A stretch of 64,000 bases of DNA from Paramarasmius palmivorus. Its lineage: Eukaryota > Basidiomycota > Agaricomycetes > Agaricales > Marasmiaceae. Positions 45,702 to 53,754 of this stretch are shown here, one piece after another (positions within the stretch are counted from its first letter, which is position 1; every line of letters begins with the position of its first letter). The stretch lies in assembly GCA_037176845.1 (NCBI GenBank), contig JAYKXP010000042.1, positions 248,001 through 312,000 of the forward strand, read 5' to 3'. The notes under the pieces were generated by a model that saw only the letters and a program-made list of their open reading frames with translations, was not told the DNA's origin and made no database searches. Both the position numbers and the translations under genes were made by a program.

Positions 45702-45787
45702 GGGCACATGGTGTAGTTGGTTATCACATCCGCTTAGCATAATCAAGTGTCTGCGGGGGGTGCTGGGTTCAATTCCCAGTGTGTCCA
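45702..45787 (+). tRNA. tRNA-Ala(AGC) with a 12-nt intron
   Basis: Same mature sequence as 35414-35497, on the other strand. Anticodon loop TTAGCA-(TAATCAAGTGTC)-T. Acceptor, D, anticodon and T stems all pair. It lies 34 bp beyond the end of the nucleotidyltransferase gene at 45821-46557. Confidence 0.93.
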
Positions 45788-45820
45788 CAAATTTTTATTA
45801 ATCCTGTGTAATAACATTCA

Positions 45821-46557
45821 TCAAAACCCAACCGCCTTCCAATGCCTCGCCGAAGTCGGATACATCCTAGTGAAAGCCCTCACCCTCTTTCTACCCGCAC
45901 TGACAAACGTGTCCGGTAACCAGCTCTCCTCTTTCGCCAACTTGACGTCTGTATACTTGGTGACAGCGAGATTCAGCAACTCCATGATATCCCTCACATC
46001 CACCGGTTGCTTTGCCCTCATATGCAACTTGGTTGACTCTCCATGATCCATCCACGCCTGGAGCTTGAGCATCAGCAACGGAAGAAATGGCATCAACGGC
46101 TTTAGCCTATGCCTGTCGTCGATGTACCGAATGTAAGATGTGGGTACATTTGGGATGTTCATCACCCCAGGAAGCAGCAAATCGACTTTGCAGCTTCGGC
46201 GGAGATATCGACTAGTGTACTCATTAAGGCGATAAAACAGTACACGGTACGTCGCAAAGGGGTCTTTGGAAGCGATAGTGTAAAAGTTTGGATCATTGGC
46301 TACGACTTGTCGCTTGAGTTCTTCCTGGGTCCAAATCTTGGTGAGAACAACCATGTCAATGTCCTGTAAATGGTTCTGTGAATATCGGTTTTATCACTCG
46401 GTAGATGGTCACGTACGTTTGGGGTTCGAGACATTCCATAAGCCGAACAGGCGACGCTTCCTACGAGACAGCATTCCAGGTTGAGCTTCTTCAGTACAGC
46501 GACGACAGCGCGTGTTGTTCGCTTAATTTCGTCTGCTGTTGCTTGGAAGGGAGGCAT
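45821..46557 (-). CDS. Nucleotidyltransferase-fold protein, paralogue 3
   Basis: Exons 46417-46557 and 45821-46363 give 227 residues; an upstream ATG at 46575 would add 6. The G-S motif CCLVGSVACSAYG and the metal-binding DIDMVVL are both intact. As in its two paralogues, the only intron sits in phase 0 immediately before the D-x-D strand. Later segments CKVDLLLPG, LPLLMLKLQAWMDH, SWLPDTFV and HWKAVGF line up with the others. It ends next to a tRNA-Ala gene and begins 212 bp downstream of the polymerase-helicase gene on the same strand. Substrate unknown. Confidence 0.84.
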
Positions 46558-46768: not shown

Positions 46769-49700
46769 TCACTGACCCAGCTCGACCTGTCTGCATGCCC
46801 CAATAGCCCTCTTCCACATAGCATTTGCCTCCAATGTTCGCCGATCTCCGACAATGATCATGGCCAACCTCGCTCTCGTCCACATCACATTCAGCCTTCT
46901 AGCATCATCCACGAACCCAATATCGGCTTCAGCATTACATCTTACCGAGGAAAAGATGATGATATCGCTCTCTCGGCCCTGGAATGAGTCGATAGTCGAT
47001 GCTGTAGCCGAACTTGGGAGTCGAGACCGTAACTCGGCGATCTGCTTGTTGTAGGGAGATAAGATGGTGATTTTCAGTGGATCCGCGTCTTGATCTTCAC
47101 TGGCTAAAAGTGGAATAACACGGTCTACTATCAATTCGACCTGTCCGAGATTACTCTTCGACCGACCGCCCATATCCTCTTCGGCAGAACACTGGATGAA
47201 AATGGTGGGGACTACGGTACCATTATCGAGTGGCCAAGGGAACCGCGTTCGTCTGAGAACATCAAGAACGGCTCTGGAATCTTGGATACCAGAGCGTAGT
47301 CTACCTTCGTAAAACTCGTTCGAGGGAAAGGCTGCGAGCTCTTGTGGGAAACGGTATTGAATCTTAGAGACGAGCATAAGCCTGAGCATACTGTGCAAAT
47401 TAAAGTGAATATTAAAGCTTACATCGAGCATGGCCTTACTCAGACCGTTATGTTCTTGCCCGGTATAGAGCCTCTCGAGAAGCGAAACATCGAATTCAAG
47501 TGCCTTGCCAATCTTCTTTACAGTGGGTCTCAGTTGAACGCTAGAAGGTACAGTTTGACATTGACCTAAGGATGATTTTCAGGCCGCTACTCACTGATCT
47601 CCGACCAGGATAGCCCTCTGTACACCCTTGACCAGAGGTATCAGTGCACAAGGCTCATTGATCTGCGAGGCTTCGTCTATCAAGGCTATGTCGAACTCGG
47701 CTTTGCGCAGGATCCCGAGACCAGCCCCTGCAGATATTCAATACTTGTTGATAGTTCGGCATCAAAACGAAAGCGCTTACCGGCACAAGTAGTAAACACG
47801 ATAACTGCAGCATCCAATCGTTCTTTTGCCTTCTTGAACAGCCTATTGTTTTCGTTCATATCCCCACCAACTCGAGCATCAATGGTGAAGCTCTGGAGGT
47901 CTTTGTTGACCTTGGAGAGATCGGTAGCAACTCGTAGTATCTGTTCCTCGCGTAAAATGTTATGTCTCTGGTTTATGGCAACAAAACGTTCGAGAACATT
48001 GTCGACAGCTGATACACGTGGAAATGTGAGCGATAATCAGGGTGCAAGAAGAATGTGAAATACCATTGTGTGTAGAAGCAGTCATGAGAATCCGGGAATC
48101 ATCATCTTTGGTGTTCACCAACGCACGCAGAATCTGGACAATCACTGTAGTCTTCCCAGTACCTGATTTGATCGGACCCTTCAGCTCGCGTTATATCACT
48201 CACAAAAACAAATGATTACCAGGAGGTCCCCAGATCAACGACAAAGGCACCGAACAGGAACGAACTGCTGTCTCTTGACTGTCGTTCAAGCCCTCGAGAT
48301 GTTCTTCTTCGCCAAGTAAAGGTCGGAACCTCTCTGCGGGCTCTATTGTTCCGTCCCCTTCGTGTCCAGTAATGATGTGGTAGAATCCGCAGCATTCCTT
48401 CTTATCTTTCAGAAGACGCGCTAAAGCATCCAGCATGGCTCGAGAAGTTGCTGTTCAAGCGCAACTGTCAGTATAACAAAAATATCCAAAGTCGGTGAAC
48501 ATTACCAGTACTGCCAGCATGGTACATGTTCCAGTCAATCACCTCCATCTCTGGGGGTGGAGGATGGAAGACCTCGATCTTCAGTTCTCCTTTCATGGAT
48601 TGAACCACTATCCCGTCTAAGATGATCGGTGATACCCATCTATTCTCGGGTTTTGACGCAGCTTGAAGCCGTACATGTGAATGTAACCGGATAGGCGTTC
48701 GAGAGTCCACACGAAGAGTGGCCATAATTTCAAAAGGGCTATCCTCGACCCGCCTTAAGCGAGTCTGAGACGGTGGTGTACGCTGCTTTCGTGGTCTCCC
48801 ATCCTCGTCGCAGGGACATTCATCCGCAGCTTCTTCTGCTCGGTCCATGGCTATACCAAGAGCGTGGCTGTCCCCGTATTGCAGAGCAGGGGTTCTTGGT
48901 GGGTCTATTTGAGATGCTCGACAATCATTGAGCACAAAAAGCGTTTCCTGAACGAGCTGTGGGGAACGAATGGATAGGGCAGAAAGCCATAGGAGATTGA
49001 AATAATCCTCCGCTGAGAGTTGGCTGATCGTCGCAGACAGCTTCTCAAAAGCAACGAGACATGCTATACCAAGCTGGTTGGCAGAGCGAATAATGTTGTG
49101 TAAAATGTTGAGACGGAAAGGACGCGCTTCGGCGCTCAAGGCCCCGGTATCATCTGGAGGGTACTTCAGGAGAAGCATGAAGGAGAGTGGGGGGTGAAGG
49201 TCCATCCATTTGATGACTAACTCTCGGCGGACAGACTCTTGAGAAAGGATGACTGAATAAACCCAAAAGAGTTCGTCTTCAGCATGATATTCCTGTCCGA
49301 CCCGCATGCACTTGTCTAGCTCATCGGAGGTCTTCGCATCAAGCAGTCTAGTAACGGCATCCTGGTTTTGCTTTGGGTAGTATACGGATTGTATCCAGCC
49401 TGGATATTCGTCCCACTTGACATTGCGGATATCATTCAGACTATATGAAGTAACCTCGCGTTCGAACCTCCGTACGCGTACTTCTGTAGGGACACTGTTG
49501 AAGAGATTAGGTGTGCGACAAATGACTATAAGGCGTGCACTTACTGCTCAAACCATAGATCAAACAATTGATGAGATACTCGATCACGGTTAGACACGAC
49601 ATGTATCTCAATGCCGGTGACAGGCGAACGATTCAGTCTCCCCAGTTGCTGAAAGCTTCATTAGATATAGCACAGCACGAAATGATACTAGGCATACCTG

Positions 49701-52700
49701 TTGTACCCTGGTTGAAAACTTCTGCAAGGCTATACTTGCCGCAATTTCGGCCCCAGATGCACGAGGAGGTTTGGTCAAAAAGATGAAAGTGTTCCTGCGA
49801 AGCTTATCGTAAAACTGGAGGTTCACGTCGCTGCAGTGAAGCCTATAGTCTGCCGTACATGGACGGTACGTAGACATGGTTGATGTGGTTTGCGGAAGGA
49901 AAGAACAAACCACCACATTATCCTTTACGATGGGGTCTTCGTCCCAGGCGATTTCTCCTCTCATGAATATTCCTACGGCGAACCGGTCGTCTGTCTACTT
50001 TCATTAGCTTCATCAAAAACGGACAAAAAGGAATCACACCTTTAGTATCAATACCTTCCGAGTATACTCTTGTGTTGCCATTCTTAGATACTCGAAAAAG
50101 GTAGCCAGCCCGTTGATCTTCGAGGAATATAACCGCTGGATCGAGAATGGATGATTTAGGCATCTTTGGTACAAATCCCTCTCGCTCAAGAGGTCTGAGC
50201 GAAACAGGGAGTTCCAGAAGAACGGGTACTTTTCCACGTCCACGTCCATTGTGCTGAGTATCGCGTACTTCTGTTGTGCAGCGAATGCACCAAAGTCGAA
50301 GTGGCCCATATATGGTGCCAGCGGAAGAGAGAACTTTTGGCAAAATCGCCAGGCGAGTGTGAACAGTTCGTACTCTGTGATGTTGCTCTCTTGACTCTGT
50401 AGAAGTCGCAAAAGAATCTTCTCGCGATCCTCCTTGGCGAGTTCGTCACCTGGCTGTGAGACTATCGCTGCTCTTGTCTCCCCGGATCGTGCAAACTCCC
50501 CGGCGAATTTCGTTGCTGCTTCTGCCAGCAGATCGAGAATGAAGGGCCCAGGTGGTTCCGGTGGTGATGCCAGGCGTTCAGGTATCTTTACAGATGCACC
50601 ATCGACTGCTTGAGAGTGTAAAGCATTGAGTTCTTGACATTCCGTACTCAATGCACCTTTGGGACTGCCGCGCACCCATTTCGCGTGTAGAGCTGCCACT
50701 CTCGCTAGGCCCGAGCTATAGAAAGAGTCCGTAATGAGTAAAAGCTCGGCGAAGATATAAAGAACCGTACTTGTTATACGACGCGAAATGATTGGCCAGG
50801 TCCGACCGAGACACAGATTTGCTAGAACGCTCTCTGTTTGGGGGGTAATCGTACGACTATTGCATCTTTCTGAGTTAGACGCATGTCATTCATGAACGAC
50901 GGACTTGCCTCGGAAACGGTTGAAGGTACAAGATCTGGATCCCAACAAACAAAGTACTTGTCACCTATAAGGTGACTGATTACCATCATACCTTGATCGT
51001 CGAAGTAAACAACTACTTACCGTCCAGATCACCACCACTGCTCATTGAAGGAGCTGCATGTCTCCCGGGTTTGGCAACCGATGCAAAGACGATACAGTCC
51101 GTAAGATGAGAGAGCTCGTTATAATGAGCTGCTCGTAGCTTTAAGCAATCACCTATTTCATATAGGTCAGCTAATTACGCTCTACATGAAGAGCATGTAC
51201 TCACCAGGATGCAGGCAAGGATTCCTCACAACCAATACGTCTCCGTGAATCGGCGTTGAGGGCCCTGACCGTCCGGTCGTGATGCGTATGTGGACCTCGC
51301 CCTCTTTCAACACCTTGAACGGATCGCAGACGCCAAAAAGCAGTCGGGATTTCGGTATTATCATCCGTGCACGGTCTTTGTTCCTCTCCCCTTTGAAGCT
51401 GGCTACCTCCTTCAATTGCTTCTTCCGAATGGCCGCTTGTACACCTTGATCGTCCAGCCCATCAAGAATGACCTTCTCCGCAAGGGCATGCTCTTCGACA
51501 GAATCAGACGATAAGAACGTGAATGCCTTGATTGGATCCGTAGATGCTTCAGCGATCCACTGATGGTACTGGTGCTGCTTTTCGAGTAGTTTCTCGTTGG
51601 TGATGCCGAGACTGGATAGAAGAACGATGATATCATTGTTAAGTCTTCCGAACGCGTAAGGCTTTGAATAGTCGACTACGGAGAAGGTATGGTTCCTTGT
51701 CGCAGTGAACTTCTTCATGCTCTTTCTGAATTCTGCAAGGTGGGCCTTCTCTTTATCCATCACGGGATGAAGCATAAGCACGCCCTTGTACCCCAAGTAC
51801 CTTTGTGAACTTAGATTAGCCTGCCTACCAGATTTCAAAGGAAACTCGCCAACATACCTGATCTGGTAAACACATGGTGTATACCTTACACCACGGAAGA
51901 TGATCCTCTTCTGCTTACTGACCTGAACCGCCAGTCTTTTCGAAATGAGACCACAGCCGTCTGAAAACAGTTCGTCTCCTGCTTTGATATCAGGTATGTC
52001 GGCGACATATTTAGGGTCTAGCTGGTAATCCACTTGTGCCTCCGAAAACAGCAATCCGATCCGCTTAGCACCTATATCCAACATGAGGTGGCCATCCGCT
52101 TTGATCTGAGATGAACTTACGTTTAGCAACATTCACAATCCTTTCAAAGTCGCCTAACGCGTATATTCTTCTGTCAAGTTCCTCGTCACTGTTGGCCTCC
52201 CGCAAGAAACAGCTTCGACCACGCTGAAAGTCCTGGTCAGAAAGGAAGGTAGGGACGGGTAAATGCAGTAGAGAACAAACCAGCTGACTATTGCTGTGAC
52301 CATAGAACCTATACTGCACTCCATTCAACCAGACGCCCTCTTTGAGCACCCTAGCAATGTACTCCCCGGTCGTCCTGAGAGGTGTCTCTGGGAACCGCAA
52401 ATCGCCAAATGAGCATAGGACGAATTTGGATGGGTCATCTTCATGGAGAATACGGTTGTAAGGGAGCTTGAAGAACAAGCTTGTCCTTGGTAAAGCGCAG
52501 GCATTTGCCGGAAACTTGGTTGGCTTTTCGAGTGGTTGCAGAGATGTAGACCCCCGGTACAGTAAATTTCCAAGAGCTGTCATCAACCGCAAGGTCTTGA
52601 CGAAGGATGTACTCCGGTGGCATCGTCCAAGTACGATGAGGGAACACAGACGCAGATGATAGCGCAACAGCTGTCTGGAGAACGCGCTTCTTTTATACTG

Positions 52701-52885
52701 GAGACGCCCACATGACCTGGCTTCCTTGAAGTTTGAACTATTGTATGACCGGTAGAAGGAGCTGCGGAACTTTGAAAATATAATTCAGAAGTGTACGAGG
52801 ACAACCATATACGCAGCACGAACTGTGGAATGCTGGAATCCATCCCTTCCGTAGTACCTCGAGACCCACTCCAGTTGTATCTCAT
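46769..52885 (-). CDS. RNA-dependent RNA polymerase fused to an Upf1-like SF1 helicase
   Basis: RNA-silencing type polymerase, making double-stranded RNA, with a C-terminal helicase. Exons from the polymerase core on (minus): ~52667-52121, 51858-52071, 51205-51800, 51021-51152, 50909-50964, 50771-50856, 50040-50715, 49698-49994, 49545-49648, 48506-49494, 48220-48450, 48064-48162, 47781-48008, 47595-47727, 47423-47540 and 46769-47362. Every junction keeps phase and no stop occurs, giving at least ~1,650 residues. Polymerase motifs: FSDGCGLISKRLA, YLGYKGVL, GDVLVVRNPCLHPGD, and the catalytic DLDGD split by intron 50965-51020. Helicase motifs: Walker A GPPGTGKTT, DEASQ, GDHVQLRP, DSFQGRESD and VMWTRAR. 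The intron 50857-50908 has a GC donor. The first exon(s), perhaps from ATG 52885, are not resolved. Two adjacent genes sharing unspliced read-through is the alternative. Confidence 0.88.
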
Positions 52886-53015: not shown

Positions 53016-53754
53016 ATGGGCTCGGACGACAAAAAGGAACCTTGGAGATGGCTCCTCGATTCGCTCACCAGTTGGTTCCGATATCCTATGTCCCAACAAG
53101 TCCTGCCTGCGCACCAGCAAACCAGACGAATATACATCATTGGTCCATCAGTAAGTCCTTTCAGAGCTCCTGTACCATGTTCTGACATCTTTCCAGTCCA
53201 CAGGTAAAACCACCCTTTGCAATGCTCTTGCAGAACATCTCGGCCTCCCTCCATCTGCACACATTCGCGAAGTAGCACGCCATGTCATCACGTCTCGTGG
53301 ATGGACGCGAAAGGACATCGGACTTCTCGAGATGCAGCAAGCTATACTAGACGCACATGCTGCTCGCGAAGAGGAGGAGATGGCAAGGAATCCGCCACAC
53401 AAAGTGCTGCTGTGCGATAGGTCCACAATAGACCCAGTCGTGTACGCTGTGTTCACTGCATTGAAAGGTGAAGAGAAAGCGAGGAAAGATGCATTGGTGA
53501 ACTCTCCGGCATTTCAGAGCGTTCTGGCTGCGTATCGGGATGCAGAGTTTTACTTGCTCGAGCTGGTGGAGGAATGGCTAGAAGATGATGGGTTTCGGCA
53601 TGTCGGTGATGAAAAAGAGTGTTTGAGGTTGTACAAGGAGGTGTTGGCGGAGTTGAGCATCGAATATAGGGTGATTGGAAAGGATATGCTGGATTTGAAA
53701 AGCAGAGTGGCATTCGTGATGGGCTCGACCTCATCGAGCGTCGGTGGCCTCTAG
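53016..53754 (+). CDS. P-loop ATPase (AAA_28/NadR-like fold), 230 aa
   Basis: Exons 53016-53150 and 53197-53754. The intron sits inside the Walker A motif: IYIIGPS|STGKTTLCNAL. A Walker B-type strand VLLCDRSTIDPVVYAVFTAL follows, and the spacing fits small kinase-like P-loop proteins of the AAA_28 group common in fungi. Alternating helices fill the rest (EFYLLELVEEWLEDDGF). The substrate is not inferable. Divergent from the polymerase-helicase gene, with 130 bp between possible starts. Confidence 0.82.

Follow-up and report, generated by a model that had tools for sequence, protein, structure and literature searches.

An RNA-dependent RNA polymerase and a Upf1-type helicase in one reading frame in Paramarasmius palmivorus: gene model, relatives, and a proposed role in RNA silencing

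One reading frame on the minus strand

We analysed a 64,000-nucleotide (nt) stretch of the genome of the fungus Paramarasmius palmivorus (contig JAYKXP010000042.1, positions 248,001 to 312,000; hereafter the window), whose minus strand encodes an RNA-dependent RNA polymerase (RdRP) fused to a Upf1-type helicase. Removal of 16 introns of 45-60 nt, 15 with GT-AG borders and one with GC-AG borders, leaves one stop-free frame down to a stop codon at 46771-46769 (-). This splice model bears out two proposals of an earlier sequence-only reading, namely a single frame from the polymerase core to the last helicase motif and a stop at position 46769. Pfam matches the product to RdRP (PF05183, 6.7e-107), AAA_11 (3.6e-43), and AAA_12 (2.1e-42, residues 1495-1691), with residue numbers referring to the 1714-residue spliced query; the window's out-of-frame first exon was left out of the Pfam query. 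The elements of the gene are as follows.

46769..52466 (-): coding part of the fused RdRP-helicase gene, open in one frame minus 16 introns (splice model)
52470..52623 (-): opening stretch of coding sequence, conserved and homologous to the relatives' N-terminus, in a frame that differs from the rest; inner end approximate (alignment to relatives)
50595..52364 (-): RdRP domain PF05183, residues 136-599 (Pfam)
51030-50960 (-): DLDGD motif, intron-split (motif search)
50857..50908 (-): frame-preserving GC-AG intron, GCAAGT...CAATAG (splice model)
49592..50210 (-): residues 728-902, TLDc-like domain that separates polymerase from helicase (position taken from the model of relative P0112)
48819..49403 (-): residues 949-1143, region of helical repeats (position taken from the model of relative P0125)
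48510..48770 (-): residues 1160-1246, 1B beta-barrel of the Upf1-type helicase (position taken from the model of P0125)
46841..48289 (-): helicase core, AAA_11 and AAA_12, residues 1302-1691, with motifs I, II, V, and VI (Pfam and motifs)
48229-48149 (-): GPPGTGKT (P-loop), intron-split (motif search)
47677-47666 (-): DEAS (motif search)
46984-46970 (-): FQGRE (motif search)
46891-46871 (-): NVMWTRA (motif search)

The polymerase half is a eukaryotic RdRP, with a PF05183 match and a DxDGD motif, and the model of P0112 predicts an RDR/QDE-1 core fold. Plant RDR2 and Neurospora QDE-1 share this core fold and DxDGD and are without a helicase; the alignment of P0112 to RDR2 begins only at about residue 277, which leaves the N-terminal part of RDR2 with no counterpart. 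The motor is, as judged from motifs I, II, V, and VI in the window and from RecA1/RecA2 and a 1B barrel modelled on P0125, a Upf1-like superfamily 1 (SF1) helicase. It is nearest UPF1/IGHMBP2 in sequence and fold, the ZNFX1 helicase core being a weaker match. Neither the UPF1 zinc-binding domain PF09416 nor the NFX1-type zinc fingers of ZNFX1 are among the 25 best Pfam families of the window product (weakest E 0.25) or in the domain lists of the 120 listed relatives.

The spliced product can be aligned to all 120 of these relatives (the 120 best-listed of 368 found), which argues that the fused frame is not due to chance. The closest among the matches listed is a putative RNA-directed RNA polymerase of Moniliophthora roreri (P0001; 85% over 94% of the query); a global alignment of P0001 and the window product shows identity at 1382 of 1654 aligned positions, and the window is sister to P0001 among the rows included in an RdRP tree. 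Proteins matching both halves, for which the sequence-only reading had suggested a search, do occur elsewhere: 64 of the 120 are complete by motif (DxDGD, P-loop, and motif V). The remainder have DxDGD and motif V without a P-loop pattern (20), DxDGD and P-loop only (10), DxDGD only (19), or no DxDGD pattern (7).

Public models include ones with only the RdRP or only the helicase, and of 20 helicase-side models examined, 8 have their start at residues 561-817 (one at 781), as if two adjacent genes had been joined by our splice model. We regard this as very improbable, given the 64 models that carry both enzymes and the tendency of many short models to end at exon borders of the window gene, and we reject it on the ground that the linker is shared by fungal and non-fungal types of the family (see below). 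In particular, none of the 120 listed relatives ends before residue 1115, and thus none ends near residue 785, the position (~49990-50100) at which the sequence-only reading had asked whether homologues are split; residue 785 falls inside a folded domain (residues 728-902). The helicase-side models starting at 561-817 would be truncated predictions. Elsewhere, P0108 and P0145, which have consecutive locus tags, are split at residue ~1248, and 16 of 167 models (P0001-P0167) end no more than 60 residues after GPPG, P0035 and P0054 of these only after the P-loop exon. P0051 ends WGPPGKCQSGISRVGI, and many RdRP-only relatives stop directly past GPPG, at the position of a window intron; these, too, are presumably truncated predictions rather than true splits.

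At the 5′ end of the gene, the start at 52885 given by the sequence-only reading finds no support in relatives. Instead, the N-termini of P0001 and P0003 match the window from 52623 to ~52470, in a frame other than that of all sequence downstream of ~52469. Only a few bases lie between the two frames, which leaves no room for an intron at the break, and this frame break at the 5′ end in the assembly may stem from an assembly indel, from a real lesion, or from unusual splicing. No second copy of 52000-52885 turned up when the same genome was searched at the DNA level. Taken together, a break without room for an intron and a missing second copy could mark the gene as a recent pseudogene or hypomorph with its first exon out of frame. 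We consider this unlikely: all other junctions and ~1,610 codons are open, an indel from assembly is possible, and alternative splicing upstream may be involved.

Middle domain, P-loop exon, and distribution of the family

The model of P0112 predicts a TLDc fold between polymerase and helicase, which suggests that the RdRP-helicase family has a previously unnoticed middle domain. At the sequence level, Pfam PF07534 does not reach its cut-off (24.5 bits), and the window segment matches no family. Two of six middle segments show TLD below the cut-off, namely those of Actinostola (17.8 bits, E 0.0034) and Mytilus (13.5 bits, E 0.07, which is level with unrelated families). A profile of TLDc-like segments (A3), compared with the Protein Data Bank (PDB), gave the TLDc structure 4acj as its only match at E<=10 (E 0.29). 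The same profile failed to recover the genome's own canonical TLD protein, the one protein in the genome that PF07534 matches, and this weakens an easy sequence-level link to TLD. No published TLDc domain in an RdRP, and no published AAA_28-RdRP link, appeared in open-literature titles or abstract starts, in searches that were not aimed at those domain names.

The P-loop of the motor is encoded across an exon that can be removed without a change of frame.

48064..48162 (-): 99-nt P-loop exon, phase 1 at both ends, TGKTT to STHN (splice model)

The phase symmetry counts for little, since the exons on either side are also bordered by phase 1. The donor of this exon (GTATTT) and the upstream donor (GTAATC) both deviate from the usual donor consensus, GTRAGT. 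GPPGTGK is included in 120 of 167 models; 11 of the 167 join GPP straight to AVDN and lack exactly this exon. The GPP-AVDN models come from Lentinula, Russulales, and Coprinopsis, and same-species models with the exon exist for L. raphanica (P0137; 33 residues missing in the model that lacks it) and C. cinerea (P0043; 37 residues). The junction could reflect a shared misprediction or real exon skipping, which would yield a motor-dead isoform.

With the helicase half as query, the matches (best 120 of 415) extended to Stemphylium, Fusarium verticillioides, and a partial protein of Aspergillus oryzae, all of which we take to be Ascomycota. A search with relative P0168 (best 120 of 2368) reached what we take to be sponges (Dysidea, Ephydatia, Oopsacas), cnidarians (Actinostola, Hydractinia), mussels (Mytilus), a diatom (Seminavis), and a green alga (Pleodorina). 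Among the 116 newly listed proteins (P0194-P0309), 101 have DxDGD, P-loop, and motif V in that order. We refer to P0001-P0167 and P0309 as fungal type and to P0194-P0308 (P0194-P0304 for linker profiles) as non-fungal type; these sets are rough, the fungal set including one Salix and one Acaulospora label and P0308 of the non-fungal set grouping with fungi. Comparison by hhalign of linker profiles from the two types (31 of 86 fungal-type and 34 of 106 non-fungal-type linkers) aligned 581 columns with a probability of 99.3 and an E of 2.4e-20, an alignment that extends partly into the RdRP head and into helicase domain 1B and covers the middle too.

Trees were built from 33 proteins chosen of 309, plus the window, with P0037 (no P-loop match) replaced by P0026 and P0175 (no P-loop match) dropped. 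P0167, taken as unfused, fell within the fungal clade in the first helicase tree; it was excluded because its sequence upstream of the helicase resembles the linker, and the tree was rerun. In the RdRP tree, one branch (100/99) separates 34 fused rows from 5 unfused rows, which are maize and Arabidopsis RDR2 and three paralogues of this genome, two of them <40% filled. In the helicase tree, the fused proteins form one clade in 22% of 200 bootstrap trees, a grouping that is not rejected (p-AU 0.549); this tree does not fix the deep branching order. Both trees place F. verticillioides P0151 and the window within one fungal clade. The taxon spread, the shared linker, and the RdRP tree together argue that a single fusion probably took place before fungi and animals separated. 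The members from Seminavis and Pleodorina (the latter on a very long branch) could be transfers.

Neighbouring genes and other loci

Upstream of the fused gene, a divergent gene encodes a second P-loop protein.

53016-53150 and 53197-53754 (+): exons of the divergent neighbour gene, an AAA_28 (PF13521) P-loop protein (Pfam, 6e-20)

Between this gene and the conserved ATG of the fused gene lie 392 bp. No other AAA_28 match reached E<=1e-3 in the scan of the 68.3-Mb assembly (35 candidates, 29 of them scored; many-intron genes could escape), and a protein search of the genome found no paralogue. The PDB match with the widest coverage is a NadR-type kinase (E 0.0013). AAA_28 also lies at the N-terminus of RdRP-helicase proteins of Dysidea (residues 4-181, 1.6e-16) and Actinostola (residues 9-177, 6.7e-12); a Pfam scan found none in the Seminavis protein or in Fusarium P0151. 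Used as a query, the neighbour protein matches 29 of 115 non-fungal-type proteins, at the N-terminus in all 29, and matches none of 168 fungal-type fused proteins and none of 25 other helicases. A P-loop pattern is present in the first 60 residues of 54 of the 115. AAA_28 is thus fused to the RdRP-helicase in some non-fungal proteins and lies beside it in the window, adjacency being known for this genome only. Fusion of a domain in one lineage and adjacency in another classically suggests a shared function, and by that measure the fused RdRP-helicase may work with its AAA_28 neighbour. In P0194-P0217, DxDGD lies mostly near residue 400 rather than 630 and none has a P-loop pattern in its first 60 residues; their AAA_28 part may have been lost or left unpredicted.

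Directly downstream of the fused gene, 45824-46557 (-) encodes a small protein with a GS...DxD pattern, which we take to be a nucleotidyltransferase-like signature. Its product has no Pfam match, and its family occupies six places on this contig (C42), its own included, and one on C37.

C42:238017-240966 and 272129-274406 (L021-L024, L026); C37:21279-21812 (L027): further places of this family

The gene was considered as a possible Cid12 analogue, but its adjacency means little because the family is local and occupies several places. Nine further RdRP places lie on C4, C33, C70, C58, C28 (three), C3, and C30, none with an AAA_12 match close by; the RdRP set is large for one fungus. A segment at ~45702-45788 (+) looks tRNA-like, possibly intron-bearing; ARAGORN found no tRNA in the window.

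Proposed function of the fused enzyme

In fission yeast RDRC (Rdp1-Hrr1-Cid12) and in Neurospora SAD-1/SAD-3, an RdRP and an SF1 helicase cooperate in silencing as separate polypeptides. RdRPs of Phytophthora and Dictyostelium carry a helicase in the same protein, but N-terminally and from a different superfamily, and the coronavirus nsp12-nsp13 pairing is viral and comprises separate proteins with an unrelated polymerase. The sequence-only reading rated the RdRP-helicase pairing too high as a novelty, as the pairing is already in print (PMC11237814 and PMC6396948, both considered here through selected passages). In particular, Fusarium graminearum Fgrdrp5 is described as a single protein in which an RdRP precedes DEXDc (1277-1478) and AAA PF13087 (1475-1677) (PMC11237814), an order that by this description is also that of the window protein (RdRP, then DEXDc/AAA_11, then AAA_12). 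Its authors assign a DEAD-type domain, whereas here the family motor is Upf1-type SF1 by sequence and fold, and the passages considered mention no TLDc-like domain or AAA_28 link (PMC11237814). Similarly, the amphioxus RdRP candidate BL02069 appears in a figure legend as RdRP with AAA_12 (PMC6396948) and, judged by that description, resembles the window protein in having both in one chain.

We consider it likely that the gene encodes one large enzyme of an old fused family, comprising an RNA interference (RNAi)-type RdRP, a TLDc-like domain, a helical repeat, and a Upf1-type helicase, that would make double-stranded RNA for Dicer. The RdRP half would copy single-stranded RNA into this double-stranded RNA, the tethered helicase would clear structure, proteins, or the product strand from the template, and the tether would help processivity or substrate choice. 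The proposal of the sequence-only reading that a fused protein tethers synthesis to unwinding holds for the single frame, both sets of catalytic motifs, and a linker and two halves that are all conserved; we infer the coupling itself, as we do the enzyme activities, the polarity, and what the TLDc-like domain and the AAA_28 neighbour contribute. A silencing role is favoured because loss of Fgrdrp5, which has the same architecture, lowers Dicer-dependent exonic small interfering RNAs (siRNAs). Specifically, the passages considered report that 5′-U 21-25-nt exonic siRNAs fall by ~32% and antisense-exon small RNAs from 27.3% to 18.91%, and they place Fgrdrp5 in a Dicer-dependent pathway needed for normal ascospore discharge (PMC11237814).

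The resemblance of the motor to UPF1/IGHMBP2 in sequence and fold also fits a helicase that does not aid synthesis and acts instead as a substrate selector, binding aberrant or ribosome-stalled RNAs and passing them to the polymerase, and a network prediction links Fgrdrp5 to NAM7 and a nonsense-mediated decay factor (PMC11237814, in part). The absence of PF09416 from the lists given above speaks against such a selector, the fixed domain order in the family is neutral on substrate selection, and we give the idea a minor share of credence. Slightly more doubtful is a role of the family outside RNAi, for example in RNA repair or in copying at endomembranes, to which the TLDc-like and AAA_28 kinase-like domains could be pointers: several matched TLDc structures are V-ATPase complexes by title, and the NadR-type kinase is the PDB match with the widest coverage of the AAA_28 protein. 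In amphioxus, where no candidate RdRP-made siRNAs were found, the authors speculate on such a role (PMC6396948, in part); the lowering of Dicer-dependent exonic siRNAs by the Fusarium deletion argues the other way (PMC11237814, in part).

Several points weigh against a Dicer-feeding enzyme of a single old fusion. The fused gene is known here from sequence, and its 5′ end is out of frame in this assembly. The unfused RdRP sample is small, and the helicase tree recovers the fused clade in a minority of bootstrap trees. SF1B motors usually run 5′ to 3′, opposite to the way an RdRP moves along its template, and simple unwinding ahead of the polymerase may therefore be wrong. To these are added the amphioxus result and, in the passages considered, a phenotype of Fgrdrp5 loss that is partial and in which the helicase part is not singled out (PMC11237814).

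Tentatively, and with less conviction than for a Dicer-feeding enzyme, we propose that animals and fungi share an unrecognised ancient RNA-copying machine composed of AAA_28, RdRP, TLDc, helical repeat, and Upf1-type helicase, which would be a single polypeptide in some animals and be divided between two divergent neighbouring genes in this fungus, and whose motor could be switched off by skipping of the in-frame P-loop exon, leaving a polymerase with a dead helicase. To our knowledge, no function is agreed on for the cellular RdRPs of animals other than nematodes, and a conserved companion motor, a TLDc-like domain, and a gene-neighbour partner would offer concrete handles on it. The Fusarium protein can be reread as Upf1-type rather than DEAD-box. 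The wider RdRP-TLDc-Upf1 family with its AAA_28 partner is not named in the open literature considered, in searches not aimed at those domain names, and the statement that Rdp1 works with Hrr1 would become a case of polymerase and motor covalently joined over deep time.
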